DNA of 55,163 nucleotides from Gammaproteobacteria bacterium. GTDB taxonomy: Bacteria; Pseudomonadota; Gammaproteobacteria; SZUA-140. Position 1 is the first letter of the stretch; each line of letters starts with the position of its first letter. This document shows positions 36,559 through 55,163 of this stretch, piece after piece. The stretch spans positions 1 to 55,163 of the forward strand of contig JAKISP010000026.1 in NCBI GenBank assembly GCA_021648525.1, written 5' to 3'. The translations under genes were made by a program, and so were the position numbers. The notes below the pieces were generated by a model. That model did not search any database, had not been told where the DNA came from, and saw only the letters and a program-made list of their open reading frames with translations.

Positions 36559-38631
36559 TCAGGTTTTTTTCGGGCGACCCAGGAACTCTTCAAGTAACGC
36601 AGCTAGTTTCTGTTTGTTGATTGGCTTGCTTAAATAGCCATCCATTCCGGCATCCAGGCACTTTTCACGATCGCCAGATAATGCATTGCCTGTCATAGCA
36701 ATGATCGGTATTTTAATGCCATCGCTACTTTCTTCATGATTCCGTATCATGCGTGTTGCCTGATAACCATCAAGTACTGGCATCTGGCAATCTATGAAGA
36801 TGATATCATAGTGGCCAGCGATCATTTTTGTGACGGCTATTTCGCCATTATTTGCGATGTGTGAGTTGATTCCATGTTTTTGTAAGTACGATGTAATAAT
36901 CATTTGATTAACATCATTATCTTCAGCAATTAATGCGAGTGGTTGCTGTGAACTGTAGTCAATGGGGGATGTGTCAGTTTTAGTATCGATTTCATCTGGA
37001 GCAGAATGGGCCGGCAGTTCTGAGAACACAGCAGTGAACCAGAATGTACTGCCATTCCCTGGGGTGCTAGTGACACCTATTTCACCGCCCATTATTGTTG
37101 AAATTTTCTGGCAAATGGATAGTCCTAAACCGGTACCGCCATATGTGCGATTCGTTGATGCCTCTGCTTGTGAATACTCATCAAAAATACTCTTTTGTTG
37201 CGCAATGGTTAATCCTATGCCTTGATCGATTACTTTGAATAACAAAACCAGCTGGTCATCATCGTGACTTTTAACTGAAACACTTGTGGTTATTTCACCA
37301 TGATCAGTAAATTTTATCGCATTATTAATTAGATTGATTAATACCTGTTTTAGCCGTACTGGGTCACCATATAATGTGGTTGGGGTGTTAATTTGATGTT
37401 CAAGTCTTAAGTTAATCCCTTTAGATGAAGCCGTTTCTTCAAAAAGCTGATGAACCTGGTTCATTGTCTTAACTGGGGAAAATTCAATATTTTCCAGGCT
37501 CATTTTCCCAGCTTCAAGCCTGGAATAATCGAGGGTATCATTCAGTATACTGAGTAATGACTCTGTTGAACTAATAACGATTTCAGAAAAATCCTTTTGT
37601 TCTGAATTCAGCTCTGTATGAATGAGTTTATCCAGGATGCCAAGCATGCCATTGATGGGGGTTCTGATTTCATGACTCATGGTGGCAATCAGTCGACTCT
37701 TTAATGCTTCAGCAGATTTTGCAGTTGTGAGCGCGTGATCTAGATCAAGGGTCTTTGCCTTTAATTCAGAGGCAATCACCTTAAGGTCTGACGATATGAT
37801 ATTGGTTTCAATTGCTCGCCTGGCGCGGTTAGATACGGTAGCCACTAATCGCTCAGGACTGACAGGTTTTGATAAAAAATCATCGCCGCCAAACTCCATT
37901 GCGGTCATCTGCTCTTTGAGATCTGATTCCGTTGATAAAAATATAATGGGTATCCCTGAGTATTCCTCCTTTTGCCTTAGTATTCGAGCAAGCTCAGACC
38001 CTGAACATACCGGCATATATAGATCCATCAGGATTAAATCGGGCTTAAATTCATCGATAGCGATAAATGAATCTAGTGGTGAGTGGATGACTTTTGTTTT
38101 CATGCAAGCTCTACGTAGTACCATTTCATGAAATGAAGCAAGCATATCATCGTCATCTATAATTAATATTTTATAGATATGTGGTGAACGAGGAATCATC
38201 GCTTTATCGATAGTGCTACGTAGTAATGCTTTATCAATTGGTTGGGTTAGATAGTAACTTCCATTATTCCTGGTAGACTCAATTCGAGACTCAATAGTGT
38301 CTTCGATTGATATTGTGATGACAGGAATGTCTAAAGAAGAAGTTTTTGATGCTGTATTATGGTTTGCGAGTTCGGATGAGATGAGTAAAATTGAATGCGT
38401 TTCATAGAGAAGTTCTGTATCAAATTCAACCTGATTATCCAGGATGATGACGTTGTAACCATTGTCGACTACATACTGAGATAACTCATCTTCCAGATTT
38501 TTATCTATTATGTGTAAGTAAATATTATTTTTTATACTTTTTGTTTTTTCATAATCTAAAATAGATTTATCTTTTCTGCTTTGATGAAGAGTGGTTCTAT
38601 CCTTGATATGTTTGTTATGATATTTATCCAT
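36559..38631 (-). CDS. Hybrid histidine kinase, REC-REC-HisKA-HATPase-REC
   Basis: A 690-residue soluble protein. Residues about 30-140 look like a degenerate receiver (no clear phospho-Asp), and 153-270 are a receiver (ILIIDDDD; ILMDLYMPVCSG). HisKA is at about 310-375 (ATMSHEIRTPINGMLG, phospho-His in SHEIR) and the ATPase at 425-535. A C-terminal receiver (565-685) has FIDCQMPVLDG. There are no membrane segments, so input must come through the N-terminal receivers or partner proteins. It is the last gene of the long minus-strand cluster, 52 bases after the HPt gene, completing a phosphorelay with it. Confidence 0.92.
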   Translation of the reverse strand: MDKYHNKHIKDRTTLHQSRKDKSILDYEKTKSIKNNIYLHIIDKNLEDELSQYVVDNGYNVIILDNQVEFDTELLYETHSILLISSELANHNTASKTSSLDIPVITISIEDTIESRIESTRNNGSYYLTQPIDKALLRSTIDKAMIPRSPHIYKILIIDDDDMLASFHEMVLRRACMKTKVIHSPLDSFIAIDEFKPDLILMDLYMPVCSGSELARILRQKEEYSGIPIIFLSTESDLKEQMTAMEFGGDDFLSKPVSPERLVATVSNRARRAIETNIISSDLKVIASELKAKTLDLDHALTTAKSAEALKSRLIATMSHEIRTPINGMLGILDKLIHTELNSEQKDFSEIVISSTESLLSILNDTLDYSRLEAGKMSLENIEFSPVKTMNQVHQLFEETASSKGINLRLEHQINTPTTLYGDPVRLKQVLINLINNAIKFTDHGEITTSVSVKSHDDDQLVLLFKVIDQGIGLTIAQQKSIFDEYSQAEASTNRTYGGTGLGLSICQKISTIMGGEIGVTSTPGNGSTFWFTAVFSELPAHSAPDEIDTKTDTSPIDYSSQQPLALIAEDNDVNQMIITSYLQKHGINSHIANNGEIAVTKMIAGHYDIIFIDCQMPVLDGYQATRMIRNHEESSDGIKIPIIAMTGNALSGDREKCLDAGMDGYLSKPINKQKLAALLEEFLGRPKKT

Positions 38632-38683: not shown

Positions 38684-39034
38684 TCATATGAAGTCTGTCA
38701 GTTTTTTCCTGATATGATCGAATTCATTAAATGCATGTTGTAAGTATTCTTTCTGATTGGTGATAGAACCAGCCTTAGACTGGCTTTCAATTTCAGCACA
38801 AATTTTCGATAATTTTAATGCACCAATGTTTCCACTGCTTCCCTTTAGGCAGTGTGATTCTTCCAGCATGGCATTAATATTATTCTCTTCAAGGGCACTC
38901 AGAAGTAATGACAGGCGTTTTGGTGTATCTTCTAGATACACTTCGATAATTTCAGCAAACATCTCTTCAGTTGCCTCTTTCAGCGCTGTCAAGGCTGCAT
39001 CGTCGATAGAAGGTTCATTTAATACATTTATCAT
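38684..39034 (-). CDS. HPt phosphotransfer protein
   Basis: A 116-residue four-helix bundle. EESHCLKGSSGNIGALKLSK contains the phospho-accepting His (HCLKGSSGN). It would carry phosphate between receivers of the hybrid kinases on both sides. Its start overlaps the end of the 996-residue kinase by 20 bases, so it is translationally linked. Confidence 0.93.
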   Translation of the reverse strand: MINVLNEPSIDDAALTALKEATEEMFAEIIEVYLEDTPKRLSLLLSALEENNINAMLEESHCLKGSSGNIGALKLSKICAEIESQSKAGSITNQKEYLQHAFNEFDHIRKKLTDFI

Positions 39035-42005
39035 GAGTAACCTGTATTTTATTAGTTTTGTTATTGTTGGGTAATTTTACTTTCCTGACTGTCTTCGGGA
39101 CTGGTTCATTGCTAACCCATATATTGATCTTTGAAATCAATGTCTCTTTGTTGATTGGCTTTGACATGTAGTCATTCATTCCCACTGCAATACATTTTAT
39201 GTCATCACCATAAAGTGCATTTGCAGTTAGCGCAATAATGCTTGTGTTCTGGTTTGGCCCCTTTTCCTGTCGAATATTATTTGTTGTTTCATAACCGTCC
39301 ATTTTAGGCATTTGACAGTCCATCAATATAAGGTCAAATTTTTCATTGCGTGCTTTTTGAAGGGCTTCTTCGCCATCATCAGCGATGGTAACAGTACAAT
39401 TTAATTTTTTCAGTATTGCACTGGCGACTTTTTGATTGACCAGGTTATCTTCTGCTAGCAGTATGCTTGGATTAGTGACATTCAATGTGTTAGGGGTTTT
39501 CTTATCATTATTGATAGGAGACGCGGATGAATTCTGGTGAGCTAAACAAAAGTCAACCCAGAAGATACTGCCAGCCTGTTCATCTGAAATAACCCCTATA
39601 TTGCCATTCATTCCTGAAACTAATTGCTTGCAAATGGCAAGTCCGAGCCCCGTTCCTCCGTAATTCCTGGTGGTTGATGCATCACCTTGCATAAATGTTT
39701 CAAATATTGATGCGTGTAACTCAGGTTTGATTCCTATACCATTGTCTTTAACTTCGATATGGATATGGTCATTGTTACGATTCGTGAGGTAGGCGCTTAT
39801 ATGTAAGGTAATCCTGCCATTTTCTGTGAATTTAATTGCATTACTCAAAAGGTTTGTGAGTAATTGTTGAATCCTGGTCGGATCTCCAATCAGGATTTCG
39901 GGAAGGTTTTTAGCGATATCTATGTTTATCTCAGTGTCCCTTTTAGTCGCGGAGGGCGTTTGGTGAGAAATTATTTTTTTAATAAGATGTCGTATATTAA
40001 ACGGTATGGACTCAAAGGTAAGTTTTCCAGATTCAGATTTTGTAAAGCAGAGTAGGTCATCCAGAACTCCCATCAGGTTGTTTCCGCACTCCTGTGATGT
40101 GTTTAAATATTCTGTCTGTTCATCGGTGAGAGGGCTATCTGATAAAAGTTCAAGTGAACCCAGTATTCCATTCATTGGTGTTCGTATCTCATGACTCATA
40201 TTAGCTAAAAATTGAGATTTTGATTTGAAAGCATTGATTGCAGAGTCCCTGGTTTTTTTTAATTCGAATTCATAGTTTTTACGTTCAGTAATATCCCTTA
40301 TTGCAGCGCATATTACGGCTGTATTGTTAATCGAAAATGAACCAAATGAAACTTCAACATCGAATACTCTTCCTGAAATATCAACATGCGTCATTTCTGA
40401 TAGTTGTGAGTTTTTATTATTGTCTGTTATCTGGATGATGTCATCTGCTGTTAATTTATTATTGGACAGGCTATGGTATTTTAGCCCTGATATGGTTTCC
40501 TGGGAGTGGCCATATAATTTTAATGCAGCGCTATTAACCTCGATTATTAACTGTGTTTTTGCATCAAAGATGATAATAGCATCTGATACGGCGCTGAAAA
40601 TCTGCCTGTATTTCTCTTCATTTTCTTTTAACCTATTTTCTGAGCGCTTTCTTTTTGTGATATCGTTAAATACAACAACTGAGCCTGTAATTAGTCTGTC
40701 ATCTAAAATCGGGCGAGTAGAGTATTCAACCGGAATTGCCAGGCTATCCTTTTTCATGAACTCTGCATTATCTATATGGGCTGACTCACCCTCTGTATAT
40801 GTTCTAAATATAGGGTTTTTTTCGATATCATCATTGTTACTACTGATTATTATTTTCAATAATCTTTCACCAAGAAGTTCATCTGGATTTGAATATCCTA
40901 ACAGTTTAACAGCAGACTCATTTATAAAGGTACACACACCACCCAGATTGATACCAAATACACCCTGGTCGGTTGATTCCAGGAGCATCCTGATATGCCG
41001 ATTTAATTTCATTCGTTCATCTTCGGCCCTCATTTTTTCAGTTGTATCTTCACTAATCAATACAACTTCATCAACCTTTCCATCGCTATTGTAAACGGGG
41101 AAAATATTACTCTGGATCCAGCGATTACTACCGATAGAATCTATCAGGTCAAAAAGGGTGACTGGAATGGTAGATGATTTCCCATTAAATGCCATTTCAA
41201 TATACCTCATCAGACCTTGCCTTTTAAATTTCTCATCTTTCAATATGTTATATTTTCCTATCGCACTATCATCAATACCCCATAGTGATCTCCATGCTCC
41301 ATTGACGTTTGTCAAGATACCTTTAGTATTAAAAATCTGTATGCTGAATGGGAATTGTTCTATGCAATTAGTAAATCGAGTTGTTGATGAAGATAGCGTC
41401 TGCTCAGCAAAGATCCTTTCTGAAATATCTCTTACGATGCCAACGTGTTCATTATTGTGACTACCTTCGATATTATTAATTGATATTTCTATATCAACGC
41501 TAGAACCATCCTTTCTTCTGCCCTTGAATTCCCTGGGCCCATTCTTAATCATTCCAGGTCGTTTCGTTTCTCTGTAGTATTTTAAGTAGGTATCATGATT
41601 TGATTTATGATCCGAACACATGATTATATCAATATTTTTTCCAATAACTTCACTTTCGGAATATCCAAATATTATCTCAGATGATCTGCTGAAAAAGGTA
41701 ATGATACCCTGGCTATCGATTGTAATGATTCCATCAACTGCATTTTGAATTAATGCTTTTAGCCTGGTATTGTCTGATTTTTGTTTATTTTCGATTTCTG
41801 GAGTAACAGTAGTGTCAGGATTGCGGGTGAAAGTTATATTTTTTAGTGTTACACAGGCTGATGCAATTATTATTAACAGGGAAACTAGCAGTATCAGGTG
41901 TAATTGTGATTTGTGACTAATACCCTCTGATAGCGAAATTATTAGTGATGATATAACTAATATGGTTATCAACACTGCTATAGTTTTAATGTAATGTTTT
42001 TTCAT
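39015..42005 (-). CDS. Membrane hybrid histidine kinase with four PAS domains
   Basis: A 996-residue sensor. Two N-terminal membrane helices (about 7-27 and 36-57) have almost no periplasmic loop. Four PAS domains follow (about 85-200, 205-330, 335-455, 460-580), for example DGIITIDSQGIITFFSRSSE. HisKA has NMSHEIRTPMNGILGSLELL, the ATPase (about 705-825) has NAIKFTENGRITL and GTGLGLAICKQLV, and the receiver (about 850-970) has LMDCQMPKMDGYE. The signal is probably intracellular (redox, oxygen or a small ligand). It sits between the phosphatase gene and HPt. Confidence 0.93.
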   Translation of the reverse strand: MKKHYIKTIAVLITILVISSLIISLSEGISHKSQLHLILLVSLLIIIASACVTLKNITFTRNPDTTVTPEIENKQKSDNTRLKALIQNAVDGIITIDSQGIITFFSRSSEIIFGYSESEVIGKNIDIIMCSDHKSNHDTYLKYYRETKRPGMIKNGPREFKGRRKDGSSVDIEISINNIEGSHNNEHVGIVRDISERIFAEQTLSSSTTRFTNCIEQFPFSIQIFNTKGILTNVNGAWRSLWGIDDSAIGKYNILKDEKFKRQGLMRYIEMAFNGKSSTIPVTLFDLIDSIGSNRWIQSNIFPVYNSDGKVDEVVLISEDTTEKMRAEDERMKLNRHIRMLLESTDQGVFGINLGGVCTFINESAVKLLGYSNPDELLGERLLKIIISSNNDDIEKNPIFRTYTEGESAHIDNAEFMKKDSLAIPVEYSTRPILDDRLITGSVVVFNDITKRKRSENRLKENEEKYRQIFSAVSDAIIIFDAKTQLIIEVNSAALKLYGHSQETISGLKYHSLSNNKLTADDIIQITDNNKNSQLSEMTHVDISGRVFDVEVSFGSFSINNTAVICAAIRDITERKNYEFELKKTRDSAINAFKSKSQFLANMSHEIRTPMNGILGSLELLSDSPLTDEQTEYLNTSQECGNNLMGVLDDLLCFTKSESGKLTFESIPFNIRHLIKKIISHQTPSATKRDTEINIDIAKNLPEILIGDPTRIQQLLTNLLSNAIKFTENGRITLHISAYLTNRNNDHIHIEVKDNGIGIKPELHASIFETFMQGDASTTRNYGGTGLGLAICKQLVSGMNGNIGVISDEQAGSIFWVDFCLAHQNSSASPINNDKKTPNTLNVTNPSILLAEDNLVNQKVASAILKKLNCTVTIADDGEEALQKARNEKFDLILMDCQMPKMDGYETTNNIRQEKGPNQNTSIIALTANALYGDDIKCIAVGMNDYMSKPINKETLISKINIWVSNEPVPKTVRKVKLPNNNKTNKIQVTHDKCIK

Positions 42006-42078: not shown

Positions 42079-43815
42079 TTACCACTGATAGTGTGCTTCA
42101 ACTCTGGTTCCTTCATTCGTGTATAGGAGGGAAGTGCAGAGCGATTTAACAAGGCTAATGCCACGGCCGTGAGCATTTCTATTTTCTTCTAGTGAGCTAG
42201 TATTGTTTGATATATCAAAGCCAGTGCCTGTGTCTTCAATAATTATGATGATATTTCCACCACTATTAGATGGTAAAGGATGATGCTTAACTGAAATGTC
42301 AATCGAGGCATTTTTTAGATTTGACAGTGCCAATTCCCTGGCATTATAGTACTCAGTAAATCCCTGAGGGTTTTCTTTGATAGAAGAATCTAATCCAAGT
42401 ATGCCATGTTCAAGTGAATTTGAATATAATTCTGAAAGTATCGTGTATATCCTTTCTCTGTGTTCTGATAATCCCTGGATTTCCATTATAGATTGAGTAA
42501 TAAGCGGGCATGGATTGGTCTGTTGTAATGCACCGGCACCCAATTTTATTGATAAACCCCAATTGACTGCTGCTAGCGCCTGGTCATTATTTTCAGTGTA
42601 TGCAGTATTGACTGTATCAAGCGGTTTTGCGGTGATTTCGATGAGTGTAATATCATCAAACTGTTCACTATTTTCGCAAAATTTATTGATAGAATTTTTT
42701 ATAGTGGAAAATGGATTACATTTATTTTGCGACTCAAGTAAAACGCTGTCTAGCCTTTCCTGCGTATACATATTTCCATGGGTATTTTGAGCTTCAACTA
42801 CACCGTCAGATACCATGTAAATTTTATCATTGGTAGCAAGCTCAAAAAACTCTACACTTCTATCAAGGTTGTCACTATTTAGAACTCCTAAGGGGAGGTG
42901 GCTTGACGATATTTTAATTGGCGGGCCGTTATTTGTGGTAATAATGATGTCAGGGTTTCCACCGTTCCAGACCGCGACTGTTCTAAACGCTTCATCAGCT
43001 TCTATCAGACATGCCGCACAAAAGAACCCTGACGGTAATGTCTCTTTTAGGCGTTTATTGATATTGTATGCGATATCACCGATAGAATAGCCCTTAGATG
43101 AAAGGCTATAAAAGGTGTCAGAGACCGGAATAGCGCCTATTGCTGCTGAAAGTCCATGGCCTGTAAAGTCACCTAGCATTACATGCATACCGCCAGATGG
43201 GGTCCGTGAACAGAGTAATATGTCACCACTAGTAATCGACATAGGCTTGAGGAGATATTTAATATTTTCTATCTCAAGATTCTCTGGATTAGTAATGTTT
43301 GTGAATATTGTTTCCGCGATTTCATGTTCTAATTGTAGTCGGCTGTGATGCTCCTGTAGTTCTGATTTACTATCAGCGATATGATTATACAATTCACGTA
43401 CGCGTACCATGGCATCAATTTTTGCTTTAATGATGGTGCTGTTGTATGGCTTTGTTATAAAATCATCACCGCCATATTCGATGCATTTTGCTAATGCATT
43501 TTCATCTGTGATCGCTGTTAGAAAAATAATAGGAACAAATATTTCGCCGCAAATTCGCTTTATCTCTACCGCTGCATCATAGCCATTCATGACTGGCATC
43601 ATGACATCCATTAATATGATATCGGGATGATCATTGGCATACATCTCAACAGCTTCTTCTCCATTTACTGCTGAAATGACGGTATAGCCTAGTTTTTTAA
43701 TTAGTGTAGACAGAATTAGTCTATTTGTCTTATCATCATCGACGATAAGGACTGAAAGGGGCAGCTGGCTCTTCGCACTTGTTACACCAGCAGTTTTAAT
43801 ACTTACATCGTCCAT
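42079..43815 (-). CDS. REC-SpoIIE phosphatase-ATPase regulator
   Basis: A 578-residue, three-domain protein. The receiver (about 18-135) has LIVDDDKTN and ILMDVMMPVMNG. The PP2C/SpoIIE phosphatase (about 190-385) has DFTGHGLSAAIG and YMVSDGVVEAQN with metal-binding Asp residues. The C-terminal GHKL ATPase (about 440-578) has SELYSNSLEHGILGLDS and GRGISLVKSL, the anti-sigma (RsbW-like) kinase type. One polypeptide thus holds both the kinase and the phosphatase of a partner switch; the substrate is probably the STAS protein encoded 45 bases upstream. Such proteins (HsbR-like) control adhesion or motility in relatives. Confidence 0.92.
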   Translation of the reverse strand: MDDVSIKTAGVTSAKSQLPLSVLIVDDDKTNRLILSTLIKKLGYTVISAVNGEEAVEMYANDHPDIILMDVMMPVMNGYDAAVEIKRICGEIFVPIIFLTAITDENALAKCIEYGGDDFITKPYNSTIIKAKIDAMVRVRELYNHIADSKSELQEHHSRLQLEHEIAETIFTNITNPENLEIENIKYLLKPMSITSGDILLCSRTPSGGMHVMLGDFTGHGLSAAIGAIPVSDTFYSLSSKGYSIGDIAYNINKRLKETLPSGFFCAACLIEADEAFRTVAVWNGGNPDIIITTNNGPPIKISSSHLPLGVLNSDNLDRSVEFFELATNDKIYMVSDGVVEAQNTHGNMYTQERLDSVLLESQNKCNPFSTIKNSINKFCENSEQFDDITLIEITAKPLDTVNTAYTENNDQALAAVNWGLSIKLGAGALQQTNPCPLITQSIMEIQGLSEHRERIYTILSELYSNSLEHGILGLDSSIKENPQGFTEYYNARELALSNLKNASIDISVKHHPLPSNSGGNIIIIIEDTGTGFDISNNTSSLEENRNAHGRGISLVKSLCTSLLYTNEGTRVEAHYQW

Positions 43816-43860
43816 GATTTAATTTTTATTTATTCCTGTCGTAGTAGTATCAGTATGGAT

Positions 43861-44169
43861 TTACTCTATTGTAAAAATTTTGTCAAAATTTGAGATTGAC
43901 AAAATATTTTTTATCTCTTTATTACAGTGTTTAAGGACAATAGCGGAACTTCCACTGCCTGTCCGCTCTTTTAAAACTAGAAGCATGCCGAGGGCTGAAC
44001 TGTCCATATATTCGGTTTGTGAAAGATTGATGATGAATTTTATGTTTCCTTTGTTCAGACAACTTTCATAAGCATCTCTAAAATCCTTATATAAATTAAA
44101 ATCGAAACGACCATTGATCGAAATGGTAAGTAATGAACCATCATTAGATAATTGAGTTGTTAGAGCCAT
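43861..44169 (-). CDS. STAS-domain anti-sigma factor antagonist
   Basis: A 102-residue STAS protein. TEYMDSSALGMLLVLKE holds the Ser phosphorylated by RsbW-like kinases (DSSALG). It is likely switched by the phosphatase/kinase protein encoded directly after it. A second STAS protein heads the cluster at 54.2 kb. Confidence 0.93.
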   Translation of the reverse strand: MALTTQLSNDGSLLTISINGRFDFNLYKDFRDAYESCLNKGNIKFIINLSQTEYMDSSALGMLLVLKERTGSGSSAIVLKHCNKEIKNILSISNFDKIFTIE

Positions 44170-44216: not shown

Positions 44217-45440
44217 TCAGAAGAGTTCTACTTCACCTTCAACAATTGATTCCTGGTGTGCTGGTTTATCACGTTCATGATTAAAATTTGATCTTGATTC
44301 TTTTAATTTCGACTTTAATTCATTAATGGATTCATCATATGTGATTTCATGCTCTTTTGAATTTAGTTCAGAAAGGCTACTGAGTATGTCATTTGAAAAT
44401 ATTTTTAATTTTTCAAGGTAATTTTGAGATGAATCGATTTGCTGACTAACAATATCTTCAAACTGAAGACCTCGTACGGCTTTATTCACATTGTTATCAA
44501 TGTTGTCTGATATTAATGAGACTTTTCCAAGATTTTCAGAGACGCGAATGTTCATGTTCCCCACTTCTTCAAGCATCATATCGACTCTGCTTTTAGCAGA
44601 TATTGCCATATTCATGTCTTTAGATGCTACGTCACCCACAATTTTCCTGGCATCAGAGATTGATACCCTGGTTTTTTCCACATGGTTTCTGATTTCATCA
44701 TTAAATTTATTTGAATGTTGGGATAGTTTTCTAACCTCATCCGCTACCACTGCAAAACCACGACCAGCCTCACCTGCATGCGCAGCTTCGATGGCGGCGT
44801 TAAGCGCGAGCAGGCTGGTTTGGTCGGCGATGGTCTTAATATCTTCTAAGAGCTTAAATATTTCGTCCATTTGATAGACCATGTCATCTATCTTATGTAC
44901 TGTCTCAATACTCTGTTTGCTAACATTGACCAGAAGGTCAATAAAGTATGTCAGGATTTCAGAAGTTTCGTTTGCAAATTCTTTGATACCGATAGCTTTT
45001 TCATTGTCACCAGACCCCTTTAGAGATGCCCCAGATACATTGTCAATAAGTGAAACAACCATGCCTTTCTGACTCTGTATATCACTGTTTAAACCGCTAA
45101 AACTGCTTCCCAGGTTAGAGACCGCATCACCCACGACACCACGAGCCTGTTTTAGCTCCTTACATGAGCTTTCAACTTCTATATTTAGTGCATCATTTAT
45201 AATTGTTATGAAGTCGATCAAGTTTTCATGGTTTGATGTTTCAGATTGATTTTTTTCTTCCTGGGCTGCTATATTTTTGTTTATGAATGACTGTGATTTT
45301 AGTGAGGCATAAACCCATAAGGATAGCGTAATAATCAGAGCAGGGATCTCAGCTAATTTATATTCACCACTAACTAGCAGTACTATAAAAATAATGCTTA
45401 AGGTAAGTGGTAAAAAATAGCTTTTAAGGTATGCGCTCAT
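44217..45440 (-). CDS. Methyl-accepting chemotaxis protein, short
   Basis: A 407-residue receptor. Two N-terminal membrane helices (about 10-28 and 32-50) lack a sizeable periplasmic domain. The rest is a coiled coil with the receptor tip: [40 protein letters not shown]. There is no HAMP domain and the signalling helices are shorter than usual. The C-terminus is VEGEVELF; CheD ends SDIELF. It follows cheB by 72 bases, the position of an extra receptor gene in related clusters. Confidence 0.9.
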
Positions 45441-45512
45441 TTTTTTTCAATGTGCCTGTCAATAACAACTACTGTAATATTTATCGGTCTCACAAAATGG
45501 AACTTTATATTA

Positions 45513-46607
45513 TTAATTATTTGATTTTTTTGTCAGTGTGATTATCTTTGCTGATACAGAATTAAGTGGCAGTACACTATCCACACCACCTAACTTTACG
45601 GCCTCACCAGGCATGCCCCATACAACACTTGTTTTTTCATCCTGAGCGATTGTGGCAGCACCTGCTTCATGTAACTCTTTCATGCCTGCCGCACCATCAT
45701 CACCCATACCAGTGAGTATTACCCCAATGGCATTATGGCCGACATTCTGGGCGACTGATCGGAACATAACATCGACAGAAGGGCGATGTCTGTTTACAAC
45801 TGGGCCATCATTTAAACGACAGATAAAACGCGCTCCATCGCGTTCAATCAATAAATGATGGCTTCCCGGTGCAATATATACATGGCCAGGCAGTATTTGT
45901 TGTCCATCGTGAGCTTCATATACTGTCATCGCTGAACAGCTATTCATTCTTTTAGCGAAAGGAGTACTAAATGCTGCTGGTATGTGTTGTGATATGACCA
46001 TTCCAGGTGCATCTGCCGGCATTTTCATTAGAACCTCTTTAATTGCCTCAGTACCACCTGTTGAAGCACCTAGTGCAATAATGGTATCGGTCGTTTTGAA
46101 ATGTCGTTTAGTGGAACGGTTATTTTTTTCCAGGATGACATCTGCTGAATTTTTAGCAGTTACTTCTCCAATTGAAGAAGCGGATTGTGTGAAGGCGTGG
46201 ACGTTTGCATTTGCGGCTGCTTTTACTTTACTGATTATTTCGTAGGTATAATCAGGTAATGAATGGGCAAGGTCTAATTTTGGTTTAGAGACGAAATCAA
46301 CCGCACCAGATTCAAGTGCTTCTAACGTGATATCCGCACCCTTTTCTGTGAGTGATGAGATCATAATGACTGGAATGGGGTGCAATCGCATTAGATTTTT
46401 AAGAAATGTGATTCCATCCATACGGGGCATTTCAACGTCGAGTGTTATTACATCTGGTTTGAGTTTTTTTATTTTTTCCCTGGCTGCGAATGGGTCCTGC
46501 GCAGTTCCAACAACCTCAATACCTCTATCAGTGGATAGTATTTCCCCAAGAAGCTTGCGAATCAGAGAAGAGTCATCAACGATGAGTACTTTTATTTTAT
46601 TTATCAT
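45513..46607 (-). CDS. cheB: Chemotaxis methylesterase CheB
   Basis: A 364-residue response regulator/methylesterase that removes methyl groups from receptor glutamates and deamidates glutamines. Receiver: [10 protein letters not shown] and [12 protein letters not shown] (phospho-Asp57). Esterase: [12 protein letters not shown] (Ser), [10 protein letters not shown] (His) and [12 protein letters not shown] (Asp). GAGGGGATG-type spacing supports ATG 46607. It lies 9 bases after cheD. Confidence 0.97.
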
Positions 46608-46616
46608 TACATCCCC

Positions 46617-47249
46617 TCAGAAAAGTTCGATGTCACTTTTAACAGGTTTTTTGACGAGATCTTTCATGTAGTCTTTTTCACGTTCAATTACAGTTTCGTT
46701 ATGAAGTTTTCTTAATTTTTTGATTCGAACACGGCCGCTATCAGGAAAATAATAAACTTTTCTTGGGTGAGGAGAACCAACATCACTGGAAAGCAGGTTT
46801 AAACCTTCAGTTTTTATATAAGTTACTGCAAACTCAATATTACGTTCTCCAACATCGGTCATATTTCTTAAAATTTTTCCGCCACCAAAAATTTTTACTT
46901 CAAGGTTTTGCTTCTTTCCCCCATTCTTTAGTATTTCATTGATTAACATTTCCATGGCGAAGTTCCCATATCTTGCAGATTCACTGAGTTTGGTGCCATT
47001 TCCACTATTATCAGCTGGAAGCATAAAATGATTCATGCCACCTATGCCAGCTTGAGGGTCACGTATGCATGCCGATATGCAGGAGCCTAACACTGTTACA
47101 ATTGCTTCATTTTCTCTGGTGACATAGAATTCTCCTGGAAGTATCTTTGCAGAAACTATTTCATTTTGTTTGTCCCAGTAACGGTTTATATGAGAAAATC
47201 CTGTAAGGCATTTTTCTATCTGGATGTCCTTTTCGCTGCATAAACCCAT
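46617..47249 (-). CDS. cheD: Receptor glutamine deamidase CheD
   Basis: A 210-residue CheD. VTVLGSCISACIRD has the catalytic Cys, and GGMNHFMLPADN the His. It deamidates receptor Gln residues and in some bacteria binds CheC or CheY. The C-terminus is KSDIELF, an unusual acidic, aromatic tail similar to that of the second receptor. It is located between cheR and cheB, as in Che2/F7-type clusters. Confidence 0.96.
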   Translation of the reverse strand: MGLCSEKDIQIEKCLTGFSHINRYWDKQNEIVSAKILPGEFYVTRENEAIVTVLGSCISACIRDPQAGIGGMNHFMLPADNSGNGTKLSESARYGNFAMEMLINEILKNGGKKQNLEVKIFGGGKILRNMTDVGERNIEFAVTYIKTEGLNLLSSDVGSPHPRKVYYFPDSGRVRIKKLRKLHNETVIEREKDYMKDLVKKPVKSDIELF

Positions 47250-47259
47250 CAGACTTCCC

Positions 47260-48093
47260 TTATTTTATTTTATTATAGATAGTTTGCCCAAGTAGATTAA
47301 AGCGATCAGATACTTTAAAGAGAGACTCTGAGTGCCCTATAAATAGATGTGCATCGGTTTTTAAAACGTTCGCATATCTATCAAATAGAACTTTTTGTGT
47401 ATCTTTATCGAAATAGATAACGACATTTCTGCAAAATATAAAATCAAATGGACCTTTTGTTGGCCATTCATGCAGCAGGTTAAGTTGTTTGAAGGTGATT
47501 AGATCCTGAAGTTCAGGTCTCACCCGTACTGTGCCAGCGTTATCACCTTTTCCTTTGAGGAGCCATTTCTTTTTTCGCCCAGTGCTTAATCCATCAATCC
47601 GATCAATGTTGTATACACCACTTTTAGCAGTATTTAATACATCAGAGTCCAGGTCGGTTGCCAGTATTTTCACATCCCACGAGTCAATTGAAGGGATTGC
47701 TTCTTTCATCGCAATCGCGAGTGAATAAGGCTCTTCACCTGTCGAACATCCTGCAGACCAAATTCTAATACGTTTGTCACTGCTGGATTTAGTTAGCTCT
47801 GGTATGAGTGTCTTTGCCAGGTACTGAAAATGGTGATCTTCCCTGAAAAATGAGGTCAGGTTAGTTGTGATTGCATTCGTGAACTTAATCAGTTCAGCAC
47901 CATCACCACCTTCAACTAGAGAGCAATAATCTGAAAAGCGGTCGATTTCAAGGCTTCTCAGTCGTCTGGACAGGCGACTGTATACCATATCCTTTTTTGC
48001 ATCAGATAATGAGATTCCTGTGTGACTCTTGACAAGGGTTCTAACCTTCTCGAAGTCCTTGTCAGTAAAATCGAAATCGCGAACTTTTTCCAT
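47260..48093 (-). CDS. cheR: Chemotaxis methyltransferase CheR
   Basis: A 277-residue S-adenosylmethionine-dependent enzyme that methylates receptor Glu residues. WSAGCSTGEEPYSLAIAM is the SAM-binding loop. The N-terminal helical domain and the FIFCRNVVIYFDKD segment are canonical. It follows the globin-PAS receptor whose tail DEWEEF resembles a CheR-tethering pentapeptide, so this CheR probably binds that tail. Confidence 0.96.
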   Translation of the reverse strand: MEKVRDFDFTDKDFEKVRTLVKSHTGISLSDAKKDMVYSRLSRRLRSLEIDRFSDYCSLVEGGDGAELIKFTNAITTNLTSFFREDHHFQYLAKTLIPELTKSSSDKRIRIWSAGCSTGEEPYSLAIAMKEAIPSIDSWDVKILATDLDSDVLNTAKSGVYNIDRIDGLSTGRKKKWLLKGKGDNAGTVRVRPELQDLITFKQLNLLHEWPTKGPFDFIFCRNVVIYFDKDTQKVLFDRYANVLKTDAHLFIGHSESLFKVSDRFNLLGQTIYNKIK

Positions 48094-48127: not shown

Positions 48128-50932
48128 TTAGAACTCTTCCCATTCATCGCTGTCGACTGATGCACTTTTCTTTTTAGAGCGTGGCACAGCGCTTTTGGTT
48201 GGAGTGCTTGCTCGTTCTTTAGGGGCACTATTTTTAGCCTTAATGCCTGGTCTTGCTGCTGGTGCCTCGTCACTACTATCACTACCGAAAAATTCCATCA
48301 GTTGTGATAACCCTTTAGACTGCTCATCCATCGATTCGCTTGCTGCAGCGGCTTCTTCAACCAGGGCTGCATTCTGTTGAGTCACTTCATCCATCTGGAT
48401 TATCGCTTTATTAACCTGGTCAATCCCGGTTGATTGTTCCTGACTGGCTGCGGCGATTTCGGCAATAATATCACTTACTTTTTTCACCGCAGTTACGATC
48501 TCTTCTAGTGTTTTTCCTGATTCATCAACTAGTTTGCTTCCTTCATCAACTTTTTCAACACTATCGTTAATGAGTGTTTTAATCTCTTTGGCAGCAGCAG
48601 CACTACGTTGAGCCAGGTTTCTGACTTCACCGGCTACCACAGCAAAACCCCTCCCTTGTTCTCCTGCTCGGGCAGCTTCAACTGCTGCATTGAGTGCCAA
48701 TAAATTTGTCTGGAAGGCAATTTCATCAATGACACTGATGATGTCTGCAATTTTCTTACTACTCTTATTGATTTCAGACATTGCCAATACTGCATTTCCA
48801 ACAACTTCCCCACCTTTTTCTGCTTGTTCTCGTGCACCACTAGCAAGCTGATTTGCCTGGTTTGCATTATCAGCATTTTGTTTCACTGTTCCGGTTAGCT
48901 GTTCCATGCTAGATGCAGTTTCTTCAAGAGAGGATGCTTGCTCTTCTGTGCGTTGACTGAGATCCTGATTGCCCTGGGCAATTTCACCCGCACCGGATGT
49001 AATGGCCGAGGCTGATTCTCTTATATCACCAACCATACTGCGAAGGTTGTTAACAGAGGTATCGATCGCTTTCTGTAATATAGAGAAATCACCCTGAAAT
49101 TCTCCATTCATATTTTGAGAGAGATCACCTTCAGCAAGTGCTTTCATAACTCTCGTTCCTTCTTTTACAGGGCCAACCACGGCGTCTAACATCTGGTTGA
49201 TTCCATCAGATAAAGATCGCATAAAACCTTCGTATGATGATGAGTCAATTCTTCTGGACAGATCACCTGCAGATGCCGCATCAATCAACGCTTGCATCTG
49301 AAGCTCAGCATCTTTCTGTTCGGTGATGTCTCGCCATTCAACCATATTGCCCATTAAGTTCCCTTCGCCATCGATAATTGCGGTGGCATTAACCTCAAAT
49401 TCAAGGTCAGCAATGCGTATCTCTGCTTTTGCAGGCAAGGTATTTTTGTTGCCAAGCAGCGCACGCTGATGTGAGGGATTTTTATGAAACTGATCAATAC
49501 ATTGCCCAACCAGATTGTGAGGATCAAACCCTGGAAATGCAGTACGGAGTTCCATTTCACGCTTCACTAGCATCTGAATTACTGCTGGATTTACATACGT
49601 AATGGTGAGGTCGTTATCACATAGCATTATATTGGTTTGTGCACCATCCACAGCTGATTGTAATCTGGCCACTTCTAGTTCTTTCTTGCGCTGTTCTGTT
49701 ACATCAGACCACTCAAGTGAATTGCCGATATATTCTCCGTTACTATCAAGCATCGCGCTGACATTAATTCTAAATTTTAATGGCCCTACTGCGATATCAG
49801 TGGAGTAGGGTAGATTGTTAGGGTTATTTAACAATTGTCTTTGATGCGCGGGGTTTACATGGAATATATCGATACAGGTACCAATAATATTATTGACATC
49901 AAAGCCTGGGTATACGGCTCTTAGTGAGTTTTCATGCGACCTCAATAAAGCAATAGTGGAGTCATTCGCGTAGGTGATAACCAGGTCTCTATCGATCATC
50001 ATAATAGATGTCATGGCGTTATCAACGGTAGACTGCAAGCGCATGACATCATTTTCTTTTTTTCTGACTTCTGTCACATCATCCCATTCAAGTGAATTGC
50101 CCAGGTGATTTCCATCATGATCGACAATTGCACTGGCATTGATATTAAACTTTAAGGGGCCAACCTGAATATCAGTTGAATAGGGCATATTAGACGGATT
50201 GCTTAGAATTTTTCTTTGGTGAGACGGATCCTTATGAAAAATATCAATACAGGTTCCCACAATACCATCAACAGAGAATCCTGGGAAAAGTGAGATGAGG
50301 GCATCCTCGTTCTTTTTGAGTAGCGTTATAGTTGCATCATTTGCATAGGTGATGACTAAATCCAGGTCGATAATCATAAACGGTGTCATGGCATTATCAA
50401 CGGCAGCTTTCATCCGTAGTGCATTTTCGTCCTTGACTTCATTAACCTCAGGTTTTACTGATTTTGTTGCGGTCGCCATAATTGAATTCTCCATTTCTTT
50501 ATTGTTACCTATCATTGTAGTAGCGACGTTATTTAATGCCTGCTGCCACGTATTTTCGATTTCCTCTGACCAGTCATCTCCGGCAACTTCTTTCATTACA
50601 TCCAGTAATGTGTTTACAACTGCCTCATAATGTTCAGGTTCTGCACCATATTGAATATGTCTCTCACCTAACGATGACAATACAATTTTTAGTTCATCAG
50701 GTTTTCCCAGGCTATTAACGACGGTTGAGAGTGCTGATATAAGTTTCTTTTCCTGTTCCTTAATGCGCGTATTTTTAAACAGTGGTTTAACATCTGGATA
50801 TTTTGAAAATAGCTCTTTATAGAATAATTTTGCTATTTGAGGCGCTTTGGTTGCTAATTTCTCAAAGCTAGTTTCAATTAATAAAATATCTAATTCCATA
50901 TCTTCATCTGGTTTTTTTAGTGACGGTTTCAC
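48128..50932 (-). CDS. Soluble globin-PAS-PAS-PAS chemoreceptor
   Basis: A 934-residue receptor without membrane segments. Residues about 15-145 match single-domain/flavohaemoglobin-type globins ([20 protein letters not shown]; His92 in [15 protein letters not shown] is the probable proximal haem ligand). Three near-identical PAS domains follow (about 172-289, 294-411, 416-533), each with C-I-D-x-FH-x-(D/N)P-x-HQR, a possible haem-contact motif. A HAMP-like linker leads to the signalling coil ([40 protein letters not shown]). The tail DEWEEF resembles the GWEEF CheR-binding tail of Aer2/McpB. It uses a GTG start at 50932; ATG 50899 is an alternative. It lies in the aer2 position of a Che2-type operon. 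Confidence 0.9.
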
Positions 50933-51206: not shown

Positions 51207-51719
51207 TTATTGTAGAAGTGCTTCAGTAGAGTCCATTACACCGCTATTCAATAATTTGTCAATTTCAAGCACGATAACCATTTTATCTTCTACTGTTGCA
51301 AGGCCTTTAACGTAGTCAATACTGATGGTTCCAAAGTCAGGTGGTGATTTCATCTCTTCTGCTGAAACATTATATACATCGGATACTGCATCAACTACGA
51401 TTCCCATTGTTCTATTGCCATTGTCGCTGGCGACTTTAAGTACAATCACGACAGTCGTTGCGCCATAAGGAATTTCCTCCAGTGCGAATCGGTGCCTTAA
51501 ATCAATTATTGGGACAATGGTGCCACGAAGGTTTATTACCCCTTTAATATAGTTGGGTGTATTTGGAATAGGGGTCACACTATCCCAGCCTTTTATTTCC
51601 TGTACCCGTAAAATATCGACACCATATTCTTCACCTGCAAGAATAAATGTGAGGTATTGGTCTGTGTCTGTCATGACATCAACTGAGGTGTTTGTATCGA
51701 CATACTGTGCTGTACTCAT
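51207..51719 (-). CDS. cheW: Chemotaxis coupling protein CheW
   Basis: A 170-residue CheW that couples receptors to CheA. FILAGEEYGVDILRVQEIKG and INLRGTIVPIIDLRHRF are typical. It starts with AAGGAGATTAA in front, 12 bases after cheA. The 274 bases between its end and the receptor gene contain no other gene. Confidence 0.96.
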   Translation of the reverse strand: MSTAQYVDTNTSVDVMTDTDQYLTFILAGEEYGVDILRVQEIKGWDSVTPIPNTPNYIKGVINLRGTIVPIIDLRHRFALEEIPYGATTVVIVLKVASDNGNRTMGIVVDAVSDVYNVSAEEMKSPPDFGTISIDYVKGLATVEDKMVIVLEIDKLLNSGVMDSTEALLQ

Positions 51720-51731
51720 AATTTAATCTCC

Positions 51732-53798
51732 TTATGCAACGTCCCTTACACTACTTTGTGGGATGCTGCCTGATGTAGATGGATTTCGTGATAGCTCAAT
51801 TAATCCATCGACATCTAGAATTAATGCAACTGTTCCATCTCCAAGAATTGTTGCCCCTGATACACCATCGACACGTTTGTAATTGGTTTCTAAGCTCTTA
51901 ATCACGACTTGTTGTTGGCCAAGTAATTCATCGACAAGTAATCCTACTTTTTTACCATCACCTTCTACAACGACAAGTAAACCACCTTCAAGGGTTTTTC
52001 TTTTAACGCTAACCCCAAACATATCGTGCATTCTTACGATAGGGATATATTCATCGCGAACTTTATAAAGCTCAGTCTGGCCTGCAATGTTATTCACAAA
52101 TTCTTTTTTAATCTGTAGTGATTCAACGATTGAAACCAGTGGAGTAATGTAAATTTCATCTCCGACGCAAACAAGTTGTCCATCAAGAATAGCAAGTGTT
52201 AATGGCAATCTTATTGTAAAGGTGGTGCCATTACCTTCTTCTGATTTAACATCAATATTCCCACCGAGCTCTCTAATGTTTCTTCTCACGACATCCATCC
52301 CAACACCGCGTCCTGATATGTCGCTCAACTGTTCGGCGGTTGAAAACCCTGGTTGAAAAAGCAGGTCATATATTTTTTCATCTGAAAGCGTTTCATCACT
52401 TCCAATAAGTTCTTTTTCAATCGCTTTAGCTTTTATTCTGTCCTTATTAAATCCGGCACCATCATCCTTAATTTCTATAATGATATTTCCACCCTTGTGG
52501 AATGCATTCAATTCAATAGTGCCAGACTCTGGTTTTCCTGCTGCCAGACGATCTTCTGGTATTTCAATGCCGTGATCAATTGAGTTCCTTACTAGATGTA
52601 CAAGAGGATCGCCGATTTTCTCCATCACAGTCTTATCTAATTCAGTCTGTTCACCGGTCATTTTTAGTTCTATTTTTTTATCTAGTTTTTGGCAAAGATC
52701 ATGTACCATTCTTGGAAATCGGTTAAATGCAAAGCTGATTGGCAACATACGAATGCGCATGACACTCTCTTGAAGCTCTCTGGTATTTCGTTCTAATAAC
52801 GTCAGCCCATCACGAAGCTTTTCCATTCGGCTGATATCAAAGTCATCAAAATCACAGTCGAGCTGTCCTATCATTGACTGTGTTATGACGAGTTCACCAA
52901 CCATGTTAATAAGTGCATCTACCTTGTCTATACTGACCCGAATAGATGCACTATCAGTATTGGCCGTAGTCTTACCTCCTGCTGGTTTTGCGGCTGTGAC
53001 GGGTGTCACTTCTGTAGTGTCTGTAATAAGGTCTTCTTTCTCCACTTTATTAGAATGAAGAGCATCACCTTTGATTTCAACAATTTCAAAGTCACATTCG
53101 TCCTCAACCCATTCAAAAATTTCCTTAACTTTTTCAATCTCAATATTCGACTTGAGCATTAACTCCCATGATAAATATGACTCCTCTGGGTCAAGATCAT
53201 CAAGTATGGGTAGCTGTGAAATATCAACTTCAACTGTGAGTTCACCTAGTTCGCCTAGCTCTCTAAACATCCTAACCGGGTCATTCCCAGTTCTAAGCAT
53301 GTCATGATGAGGTTTAAATTTGATTTTCCATCCTTCACGATCCTCGCACGCTTCTGGTGTGTCAGCAGTTTCAGTTTTTTCAACGATATTAGTTACGGCG
53401 CTGTTGTTGCCTGATGCTAAAATTGCTTCTAGCTCACCTTTTAGCACAGCTGCATTTTCTGTATCGATCGGTGTTTTGTCTCTTGATGCGGCCAGCATTT
53501 CACGTAAACAGTCTACGGACTGAAGGAGTGTATCAACAGACCCTTGTGTTACATCCCGACTGCCATCCCGCATTTCATCAAGCAGTGTTTCCATTCCGTG
53601 GGTAAACTCAGCGACCTCGGTAAATCCGAAGGTTGCGCTGCCACCTTTAATTGAATGTGCAGCGCGGAAAATTGAATTAACGGTATCATTATCTGCTGCA
53701 CCAATATCCAGGTTTAATAATCCAGATTCCATGATGTCTAGTCCTTCGAAGCTCTCTTCAAAGAAAGTCTCATGAAACTGTGTAATGTCTATTGTCAT
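51732..53798 (-). CDS. cheA: Chemotaxis histidine kinase CheA
   Basis: A 688-residue kinase. The HPt domain has FRAAHSIKGGSATFGF (phospho-His48). A linker without a clear CheY-binding P2 fold leads to the dimerisation helices (VGELVITQSMIGQL), the ATPase (LVRNSIDHGIEIPEDR; SGRGVGMDVV) and the C-terminal CheW-like domain (ILDGQLVCVGDE). It phosphorylates CheY and CheB. It starts 6 bases after cheY. Confidence 0.97.
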   Translation of the reverse strand: MTIDITQFHETFFEESFEGLDIMESGLLNLDIGAADNDTVNSIFRAAHSIKGGSATFGFTEVAEFTHGMETLLDEMRDGSRDVTQGSVDTLLQSVDCLREMLAASRDKTPIDTENAAVLKGELEAILASGNNSAVTNIVEKTETADTPEACEDREGWKIKFKPHHDMLRTGNDPVRMFRELGELGELTVEVDISQLPILDDLDPEESYLSWELMLKSNIEIEKVKEIFEWVEDECDFEIVEIKGDALHSNKVEKEDLITDTTEVTPVTAAKPAGGKTTANTDSASIRVSIDKVDALINMVGELVITQSMIGQLDCDFDDFDISRMEKLRDGLTLLERNTRELQESVMRIRMLPISFAFNRFPRMVHDLCQKLDKKIELKMTGEQTELDKTVMEKIGDPLVHLVRNSIDHGIEIPEDRLAAGKPESGTIELNAFHKGGNIIIEIKDDGAGFNKDRIKAKAIEKELIGSDETLSDEKIYDLLFQPGFSTAEQLSDISGRGVGMDVVRRNIRELGGNIDVKSEEGNGTTFTIRLPLTLAILDGQLVCVGDEIYITPLVSIVESLQIKKEFVNNIAGQTELYKVRDEYIPIVRMHDMFGVSVKRKTLEGGLLVVVEGDGKKVGLLVDELLGQQQVVIKSLETNYKRVDGVSGATILGDGTVALILDVDGLIELSRNPSTSGSIPQSSVRDVA

Positions 53799-53804
53799 TT
53801 CAGA

Positions 53805-54167
53805 TCACCCCAGCACTTTATTTATTGTTGCCAGTAATTGATCTGGGTCAAATGGCTTAACAATCCAGCCAGTTGCACCTGCATCTTTCCCTTCCTGTTT
53901 CTTATGAGGAGCGGATTCAGTTGTGAGCATTAATATTGGCGTGAATTTGTAATCGGGAAGGTTACGTAGCTCTCTAATTAGTTCAATACCATCCATGTTA
54001 GGCATGTTGACGTCTGTTATTACCAGGCTTACTTTATTTGCCTGAGCTGCTTTCAGGCCATCTACTCCATCAACTGCCTCTACCACATCATGCCCTGCAT
54101 TCTTTAGCGCAAAAGAGACCATCTGACGCATTGATGCCGAATCGTCCACTGCTAGAATACTTGCCAT
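53805..54167 (-). CDS. cheY: Chemotaxis response regulator CheY
   Basis: A 120-residue single receiver: ILAVDDSASMRQMV, LVITDVNMPNMDGI (phospho-Asp), MLTTES and IVKPFDPDQL. In this cluster type CheY may not bind the flagellar switch. AAGGAGATTAA precedes the start. Confidence 0.96.
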   Translation of the reverse strand: MASILAVDDSASMRQMVSFALKNAGHDVVEAVDGVDGLKAAQANKVSLVITDVNMPNMDGIELIRELRNLPDYKFTPILMLTTESAPHKKQEGKDAGATGWIVKPFDPDQLLATINKVLG

Positions 54168-54220: not shown

Positions 54221-54538
54221 TTAACAGGCGGTTGAAAGCTCAAAATGCTCACTAAGGCCTAATTGTTTTATGGATTTCGAAAATATATCTGACGGGGTAG
54301 TCCATTCACATTTGATTTTTTTTGACTTAGCGTCTTGATAAAACGCACACAACATTTGAGCACCTGCTGTATCGATGCGTTCTATATTCGAGATATCAAT
54401 GGAGATGTCGTCCCCAGAACTAAGGGCGTCTTTTAGCTTTTGATTGATCTCATTGACCATCGAGATATCGAGCAGGTCGCCGCAGTCAATAGTATTGTCT
54501 TGCTGAGTAGACTTATTTTGTCTGCTTTTTTTGGCCAT
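54221..54538 (-). CDS. STAS-domain protein heading the che operon
   Basis: A 105-residue STAS protein from ATG 54538, with AGGGATGAATAAA in front (ATG 54547 is closer to that site and less likely). ISIDISNIERIDTAGAQMLC is the core; the phosphorylatable Ser is replaced by Thr in DTAGAQ, as in MlaB-like and some che-linked STAS proteins. It is the first gene of the operon, 53 bases before cheY. Confidence 0.85.
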   Translation of the reverse strand: MAKKSRQNKSTQQDNTIDCGDLLDISMVNEINQKLKDALSSGDDISIDISNIERIDTAGAQMLCAFYQDAKSKKIKCEWTTPSDIFSKSIKQLGLSEHFELSTAC

Positions 54539-54620
54539 TTTATTCATCCCTGGTGGTTCTGCGATAACATTCTGTGGTTACTTCAATCCAGATATCGTCA
54601 GTCAAATCTAAAACTTTAAC

Positions 54621-54642
54621 GAATGTCAAGTCCGTGACATTC
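54621..54642 (-). promoter_or_regulatory. Palindrome at the head of the che operon
   Basis: gaatgtca-agtccg-tgacattc is an 8-base inverted repeat with a 6-base spacer, 83 bases before the STAS start. On the minus strand it contains TTGACATTC, a near-consensus -35 box, so a bound protein would block or modulate this promoter. Confidence 0.6.
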
Positions 54643-55076: not shown

Positions 55077-55163
55077 AGCCCGTATATGGTCTCCCCCCGT
55101 TTTGCAATCTTTGTGATATAAATAACAGGAACAGGATTGCGGTCGTATATCCGGCCTGTTAAT

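Follow-up and report, generated by a model that had tools for sequence, protein, structure and literature searches.

A partner switch in an F7 chemosensory operon with predicted sigma-28 promoters in a gammaproteobacterium without detected RpoS

Partner switches of Gram-negative bacteria often have a chemosensory system as their sensing module, as the abstract of a 2018 review reportedly proposes. In this study, we present an in silico analysis of such an arrangement in a 55,163-nucleotide stretch of DNA from a gammaproteobacterium of the GTDB lineage SZUA-140 (contig JAKISP010000026.1 of assembly GCA_021648525.1), designated the window in the following, which is contig C49 of a 3.36-Mb draft genome of 76 contigs that is 99.91% complete. 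The window contains a 14-gene array in which a regulator composed of receiver (REC), SpoIIE, and HATPase domains and resembling CrsR and HsbR is located, together with its STAS partner, between chemosensory (che) genes and two hybrid histidine kinases flanking a histidine-phosphotransfer (HPt) protein.

The closest described systems are those of Shewanella oneidensis, where crsR and crsA are located within the che1 locus and were found on one transcript by reverse transcription polymerase chain reaction (Fortier et al., PMC9855816), and of Pseudomonas aeruginosa, where HptB, HsbR, and HsbA form a relay which has been relocated beside flgM (Valentini et al., PMC5085249); the mechanisms of CrsR-RpoS and HsbR-HsbA-FlgM have both been described (Bouillet et al., PMC6482189). 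A further relative is the stage-1 F7 chemosensory cluster, which starts with a STAS gene, ends with mcpA, STAS, and phosphatase genes, and contains two cheW genes; the function of F7 arrays in stages 1 and 2 was called unclear (Ortega et al. 2020, PMC7184735). The merger of a partner switch with a chemosensory operon is already known and not new here. New are the absence of a detectable RpoS, the tracking of FlgM by CrsR, the flgM neighbourhood in congeners, and the predicted sigma-28 sites in the operon. Among the open-access papers listed, none was seen on an F7 operon that combines sigma-28 promoters, flgM linkage, and a CrsR switch without RpoS, as judged from titles and the openings of abstracts.

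The window shares with CrsR-CrsA of S. oneidensis a REC-PP2C-HATPase regulator and a STAS protein, both encoded in an F7 che operon that also contains receptors of the Aer2 and McpA types. However, CrsR of Shewanella targets RpoS, which is absent in the window's genome, and che1, compared here by its published description, has ten listed genes without HPt or hybrid kinase, both of which are present in the window. The combination of HPt, REC-PP2C-HATPase, and STAS proteins in a flagellar-gene context is shared with HptB-HsbR-HsbA of Pseudomonas, and the relocated genes of P. aeruginosa stand beside flgM as they do in the window's genus; in contrast, the Pseudomonas HptB-HsbR loci examined have no F7 che genes, and the HPt gene of the window is located between two hybrid kinase genes. 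Genes 1 to 11 of the array have the same order as the stage-1 F7 cluster, short of one cheW (one copy instead of the published two), and, as in stage 1, a second che set is present elsewhere in the genome (contig C76, next to fliA). The window differs in the N-terminal globin of its Aer2-like receptor, in the kinase-HPt-kinase genes added downstream, and in the proximity of flgAMN and the predicted sigma-28 sites, which go unmentioned in the available part of that paper (PMC7184735). The SpoIIAB/SpoIIAA/SpoIIE and RsbW/RsbV/RsbU systems have the same three activities and matching domain folds, but in the window phosphatase and kinase are fused onto a receiver domain.

The switch and its phosphorelay

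The array extends from position 54547 to 36559 on the minus strand, which carries all features of the window described below (open reading frame (ORF) list and Pfam/NCBIfam), in the order STAS1, cheY, cheA, cheW, aer2, cheR, cheD, cheB, the gene of a McpA-like receptor (mcpL), STAS2, the REC-SpoIIE-HATPase gene, a hybrid kinase (HK1), HPt, and a second hybrid kinase (HK2). The intergenic gaps measure, in this order, 53, 6, 12, 274, 34, 10, 9, 72, 47, 45, 73, -20, and 52 nt, i.e., at most 73 nt throughout except for the 274 nt between cheW and aer2, and a scan of the gaps from STAS1 to the last kinase gene found no terminator-like site on the minus strand. An earlier sequence-only reading had seen a STAS and REC-SpoIIE-ATPase pair with the che genes on one side and two hybrid kinases with an HPt on the other, had noted a further STAS protein at the start, and had taken the whole for one operon with a partner switch. 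All of these ORFs are present, and both the operon and the partner switch are supported, as published for other bacteria (PMC9855816, PMC7184735, PMC6482189). Three congeners (G009, G003, and G004) have the same gene order, and the arrangement is therefore not due to chance.

The CrsR/HsbR-like regulator (42079..43815, 578 aa; Pfam, alignments, structure models) unites, like other members of its family, a receiver, a PP2C (SpoIIE) phosphatase, and a GHKL kinase/anti-sigma domain in one protein. The SpoIIE (121.4 bits) and Response_reg (92.9 bits) domains score above the Pfam cut-off, the HATPase domain (23.8 and 21.9 bits) below the cut-offs of 27.4 and 26.4. In fold searches, an AlphaFold2 model of the HATPase domain alone (predicted local distance difference test (pLDDT) 88.6) matches LvrC of Leptospira (E 8e-8) and SpoIIAB complexed with SpoIIAA or sigma-F (1th8 and 1l0o; E 8e-6 and 3e-5), and a full-length model (pLDDT 81.3, predicted template modelling score 0.49) matches RssB of P. 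aeruginosa and the RsbU-RsbW protein Rv1364c. Among the best 60 of 324 matches of a PDB sequence search with the CrsR profile, nearly all concern the receiver domain. The catalytic residues are intact in the receiver (D26/D27/D70/T100/K122), the SpoIIE domain (D216/D337/D387/D388), and the HATPase domain (N-box E462/N466, D528-x-G530-x-G532, G550-x-G552). Receiver, phosphatase, and N/G-box positions are conserved in two CrsR alignments (A1, 20 rows; A2, 38 rows), and each catalytic position is kept in at least 144 of 154 CrsR loci, a set with two duplicates; the exception is position 26, with D or E in 147. The closest named relative, 88% identical, is encoded by the metagenome-assembled genome Thiotrichaceae bacterium NORP103 (L077, Gammaproteobacteria).

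In the homologues of loci L060 (G017), L066 (G029), L206, L234, L241, L249, and L250, receiver residues (the acidic pair, D70, or K122) are lost, and some CrsR switches with degenerate receivers may work without phosphotransfer to the receiver. A dependence of such receivers on HPt was considered and rejected: D70 or K122 is lost in 1 of 81 proteins with HPt and 7 of 73 without, which are too few cases and are not corrected for the tree.

STAS2 (43861..44169, 102 aa; Pfam STAS 48 bits, alignment), a CrsA/HsbA-like anti-sigma antagonist, has the motif D56-S57-S58. Serine directly follows the aspartate in 95 of 96 aligned rows, the remaining row being gapped and one pair of rows duplicated, and in the alignment with SpoIIAA of 1th8 (DSS) and 1tid (DAS) this first serine is the phosphosite. 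Ser57 is thus the predicted phosphorylation site of STAS2, in agreement with Ser56 of HsbA (Valentini et al., PMC5085249).

Downstream of the regulator follow HK1 (39015..42005; PAS repeats-HisKA-HATPase-REC; ORF, Pfam), an HptB-like HPt protein (38684..39034; Pfam, HPt profile), and HK2 (36559..38631; two REC domains, HisKA, and HATPase; ORF, Pfam). A phosphorelay onto the switch, as the earlier reading had proposed, finds support by homology: HptB activates HsbR in P. aeruginosa (PMC5085249), and the HPt of the window is the best match in its genome to a profile of 64 HPts whose genes follow crsR in other genera, mostly Pseudomonas (81.8 bits; the next of the eight HPt hits has 53.1). As in HsbR-type systems, an HptB-like HPt is encoded nearby, with HK1 between it and crsR.

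RpoS, FlgM, and predicted sigma-28 promoters

No RpoS was found in the window's genome: the three hits of TIGR02394 are RpoD, RpoH, and FliA, and the seven proteins with sigma-70 region 2 are these three and four ECF-sized proteins of 189-206 aa. RpoS is above the cut-off in none of the six CrsR-bearing genomes of the genus (78-99.9% complete, the window's own included), and the target of the Shewanella-type CrsR is accordingly missing in the window's genome and in five congeners. Across 21 CrsR-bearing genomes searched, RpoS was above the cut-off in 11 and not in 10, six of which belong to this genus.

A sample of the class, comprising 370 genomes each at least 90% complete, contains full-length CrsR in 69; matches without receiver or HATPase domain were dropped before the count, and two of the 69 (G221, G306) have internal stops. 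FlgM is present in 58 of the 69 CrsR genomes and in 148 of the 301 others (odds ratio 5.5, p 8e-8). RpoS, called leniently at E <= 1e-100 (256 genomes, 240 of them above the curated cut-off), is present in 52/69 vs. 204/301 (p 0.25) and lacking in 17 of the CrsR genomes. Among RpoS-less genomes, FlgM occurs in 14/17 with CrsR vs. 33/97 without (p 3e-4), and counting by genus gives 47/54 vs. 111/218 for FlgM (odds ratio 6.5, p 5e-7) and 43/54 vs. 153/218 for RpoS (p 0.18). In this sample, CrsR tracks FlgM, not RpoS.

In four congeners, flgM is located 0.7-1.5 kb upstream of the module. The genes flgA, flgM, and flgN (Pfam/NCBIfam) of G009 end 244 nt before the STAS1 match. In G004 and G003, flgM precedes STAS1 by about 1.5 kb; G002 lacks F7 che genes at this place and has flgM about 0.8 kb ahead of STAS2-crsR. 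Contig C41 of the window's genome ends with flgA-flgM-flgN, and the window's contig has its end ahead of STAS1. The G009 fragment from flgM to STAS1 matches both contig ends (83% and 86%), and on this basis flgN and STAS1 are inferred to be contiguous here as well. A profile of flgM gave hits near crsR at 2 of the 154 loci (G009 and G002), flgM of G003 and G004 lying just outside the fetched stretches; within the flanks of these loci, flgM adjacency is seen only in this genus. Some sequence at both contig ends (window 54548-55163 and the end of C41) is without counterpart in the G009 fragment, and an insertion at the assembly break between flgN and STAS1 may be the cause.

Sigma-28 promoters were predicted with the E. 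coli FliA consensus, scoring 16 positions. The window has two sites with up to three mismatches (0.53 expected; 11 shuffles reach two), both with two mismatches and on the operon strand. The first, TAAAGTTT-N11-GACGATAT (54592..54618, 14/16), is located 45 nt before STAS1, and the second, TAAAGTTC-N11-ACCGATAA (45481..45507, 14/16), 41 nt before mcpL in the cheB-mcpL gap. The whole genome contains four sites with up to two mismatches: these two, one before a flagellin gene (C1:43778-44194), and one 38 nt before a PilZ-like gene (L254:1565-2470 on contig C46; 21.1 bits, cut-off 22.5), whose product is a possible flagellar brake. The site before STAS1 is found at the same position with 14/16 in all four genomes with the operon, and that before mcpL with 14, 14, 14, and 13 of 16, the 13 in G004, with differing spacers. 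The best upstream score of the other operon genes is only 8-12. As a positive control, all three strong flagellin loci have a site of 14/16, and three weaker flagellin-family loci have none. Of 400 permuted motifs, none reached the observed number of loci and one scored at least 14 before any of 11 operon genes of the window. By these conserved, predicted FliA-type promoters the operon appears to belong to the sigma-28 regulon. A scan for sigma-54 sites gave 36 vs. 36.1 expected.

Across the locus set, sites of at least 13/16 upstream of operon genes occur at 7 of 21 RpoS-less loci, 6 of 54 RpoS-bearing loci (7 of 54 with slightly different limits of the searched region), and 1 of 79 others. 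Before STAS1, where its start lies within the fetched stretch, they were found in 5/5 RpoS-less and 2/6 RpoS-bearing cases, and before mcpL in 5/13 and 3/31. The RpoS-less genomes G093 and G209, which belong to another family, have a 14/16 site before STAS1; G040, G180, and G274 have no site before mcpL, their fetched stretches ending short of the region upstream of STAS1. A swap from RpoS to sigma-28 promoters across lineages was considered and discarded, as three of the five STAS1 cases and four of the five mcpL cases are from this genus. Expression of the F7 cluster of Vibrio cholerae has been linked to RpoS (PMC7534058).

Proposed mechanism and alternatives

The components with their intact catalytic residues, the gene order, the lack of an RpoS hit, flgM near the module in congeners, and the conserved candidate promoters are compatible with a sigma-28-transcribed partner switch which is directed at FlgM/FliA and fed by a phosphorelay and probably by the F7 chemosensory array, a reading we favour tentatively and at slightly less than an even chance. 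HK1 and/or HK2 would phosphorylate HPt and, by analogy to HsbA/HsbR/HptB, the phosphoryl group would pass to the receiver of the CrsR/HsbR-like protein, the phosphorylated receiver would turn on the PP2C domain, STAS2 would be dephosphorylated at Ser57, and dephosphorylated STAS2 would bind FlgM as HsbA does, setting FliA free. In the absence of a signal, the SpoIIAB-like domain would phosphorylate STAS2, and FlgM would retain FliA. Since the operon has predicted sigma-28 promoters, more free FliA would make more switch, i.e., a feedback loop. Operon membership suggests that the Aer2/CheA array, whose output the earlier reading had let converge on the same regulator, may contribute oxygen or redox information, either by passing phosphoryl groups directly or via mcpL; the literature on such an input goes no further than "could be" or "probably" involved, Che1 of S. 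oneidensis being said to be possibly involved in RpoS regulation (PMC9855816). HsbR-type systems are characterized by a STAS protein that binds FlgM, and FlgM itself is present in the window's genome (TIGR03824, 64.2 bits, cut-off 40.75).

Several observations weigh against this mechanism. HsbA is reported to bind its regulator in one phosphorylation state and CrsA in the opposite one (PMC6482189), and the sign of the effects is therefore uncertain. Sites with up to three mismatches are no commoner genome-wide than in a reversed control (59 vs. 66) and about four sites with up to two mismatches are, by our estimate, expected by chance, so that the case for sigma-28 rests on position and conservation. 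No site of at least 13 was found before STAS2 of G002, where the module stands beside flgM, or before flgA-flgM in the window's genome, and some RpoS-bearing loci also carry sigma-28 sites. CrsR occurs in six of ten genomes of the genus and not in G005-G008 (66-94% complete), for which loss and incompleteness are not told apart in the lack of a full match. The association of CrsR with FlgM comes from tests without tree correction, and motility as such may lie behind it. Eleven of the 69 CrsR genomes have no FlgM hit, and FlgM is therefore not the sole target; the RpoS-less ones among them are G093, G209, and G306, the first two despite their sigma-28 site before STAS1. In the fetched flanks, flagellar genes occur at only 9 of the 69 class-sample loci; they occur at 62 of the 79 other loci, mostly from Pseudomonas, of which the one read, L096, has the switch between fliJ and fliK.

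According to a first alternative, which we consider rather unlikely, F7 array and switch are merely co-transcribed genes of the flagellar regulon, CheA signaling to CheY alone and the switch answering HPt only. The Pseudomonas loci examined, with switch and HPt and no F7 genes, would fit this, as does the finding that McpA of S. oneidensis joins the F6 array instead (PMC9855816). A tree of 101 CrsR proteins gives minimum numbers of changes of 19 for the link to F7 genes, 22 for that to mcpL, and 8 for that to HPt, rough counts from a quick tree with several long branches and with labels that miss genes beyond contig ends; read in this way, the switch core stays while its input modules turn over. 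However, F7 linkage recurs (at least 31 of the 69 class-sample loci), and mcpL tends to change with it: of 12 independent pairs, 5.8 change in the same way and 0.1 in the opposite way (median p 0.03). For F7 and HPt linkage, no correlation was found on this tree (median p 1). F7 genes and HPt occur together at 9 of the 69 class-sample loci, two of them from this genus, and also in Oleispira (L085), Oceanobacter (L090), Pleionea (L146), and Cellvibrionaceae (L154). That mcpL and HPt are mutually exclusive neighbours of crsR was suggested by single-query BLAST and broken by the profile search, both being present at 8 of 75 loci of the G-numbered genomes (four from this genus) and, among the other 79, at L085, L090, and L146.

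Somewhat less likely still, the CrsR-like protein may itself be the anti-sigma factor, its SpoIIAB-like domain holding FliA (or RpoH or an ECF sigma factor) until STAS2 releases it, as in CrsR-RpoS of Shewanella. Binding of RpoS by CrsR is a published mechanism (PMC6482189), the HATPase model matches SpoIIAB also in its complex with sigma-F (1l0o), FliA, RpoH, and RpoD are all present in the window's genome, and G093 and G209 have F7 genes, switch, and sigma-28 site with hits to neither RpoS nor FlgM. On the other hand, sigma specificity is unreadable from sequence, and HsbR of Pseudomonas works via HsbA-FlgM as well.

An output through a diguanylate cyclase or another STAS2 partner of the HsbD type instead of a sigma factor is improbable, although the diguanylate cyclase HsbD of P. 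aeruginosa is a binding partner of phosphorylated HsbA (PMC5085249) and one of the four best sigma-28 sites precedes a PilZ-like gene, since the operon, to which the survey for cyclases was confined, has no diguanylate cyclase gene. An undetected or highly diverged RpoS as the target, for which the draft state of the genome in 76 contigs speaks, is most improbable given its 99.91% completeness, the lack of RpoS above the cut-off in all six genomes of the genus, and the assignment of its seven sigma-70 region-2 proteins to RpoD, RpoH, FliA, and four ECF-sized proteins.

The CrsR literature points to RpoS as the output (PMC9855816, PMC6482189). A wider and doubtful extension of the FlgM/FliA switch would be that in RpoS-less bacteria sigma-28 is the output of stage-1 F7 arrays. 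Array, phosphorelay, and switch would then make up a single sigma-28-transcribed loop that sets the amount of free FliA, in which the CrsR-like protein and, where it occurs, FlgM lock the same sigma factor. If this is true, the missing function of stage-1 F7 arrays would be found. A lineage that has retained the complete set without RpoS, close to flgM, and downstream of predicted sigma-28 sites sets the two published outputs apart and opens the question to testing, the prediction being that the FlgM/FliA axis is the general partner of the switch.

Remaining genes of the operon and minor observations

The first gene encodes STAS1 (54221..54547; ORF, Pfam/NCBIfam, alignment). The earlier reading was right in placing a further STAS protein at the head of the operon; its part in the switch is doubtful, as STAS_2/MlaB-like models score STAS1 higher than STAS2 and its phosphosite motif is D-T-A-G instead of the D-S-S of STAS2. 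In seven aligned rows (the window, L051, L053, L064, L085, L090, and L168), the phosphosite is threonine in six and alanine in one, the motif being D-A-A in L168 and D-T-A or similar in the others. STAS1 had been regarded as non-phosphorylatable, which was abandoned: that view rested on the second serine column (alanine in 7/7), and the phosphosite is the first. Phosphorylation of the threonine is neither shown nor excluded by these motifs.

The che genes, assigned by Pfam/NCBIfam, are cheY (53805..54167), cheA (51732..53798), whose F7 class is assigned by gene order and not by a class model, a single cheW (51207..51719), cheR (47260..48093), cheD (46617..47249), and cheB (45513..46607). The 274-nt gap between cheW and aer2 holds no second cheW, being too short and having stops in two of three frames. 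The Aer2-like receptor (48128..50932; NF041847 1055.9 bits, cut-off 1200) consists of globin, PAS repeats, HAMP, and methyl-accepting chemotaxis protein (MCP) signalling domains; the globin (Pfam Globin 64.3 bits) ahead of the PAS domains may give this one receptor a second heme gas sensor. The mcpL product (44217..45440), McpA-like by position, has an MCP signalling domain and, as judged by eye, a hydrophobic N-terminus.

A second stand-alone HPt gene of the genome (L158:3391-3735 on contig C45) has a FliA-like site with three mismatches about 90 nt upstream, a class of sites at chance level, and adjoins a convergent ECF-sized sigma gene. A search of "Plasmids" proteins for CrsR gave three full-length matches only, on Vibrio replicons. 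Outside the Gammaproteobacteria, CrsR-STAS pairs with 41-43% identity occur in Nitrospirae/Nitrospira (L084, L086) and Magnetococcales (L081-L083), and those of the Magnetococcales adjoin CheA- and MCP-like genes.

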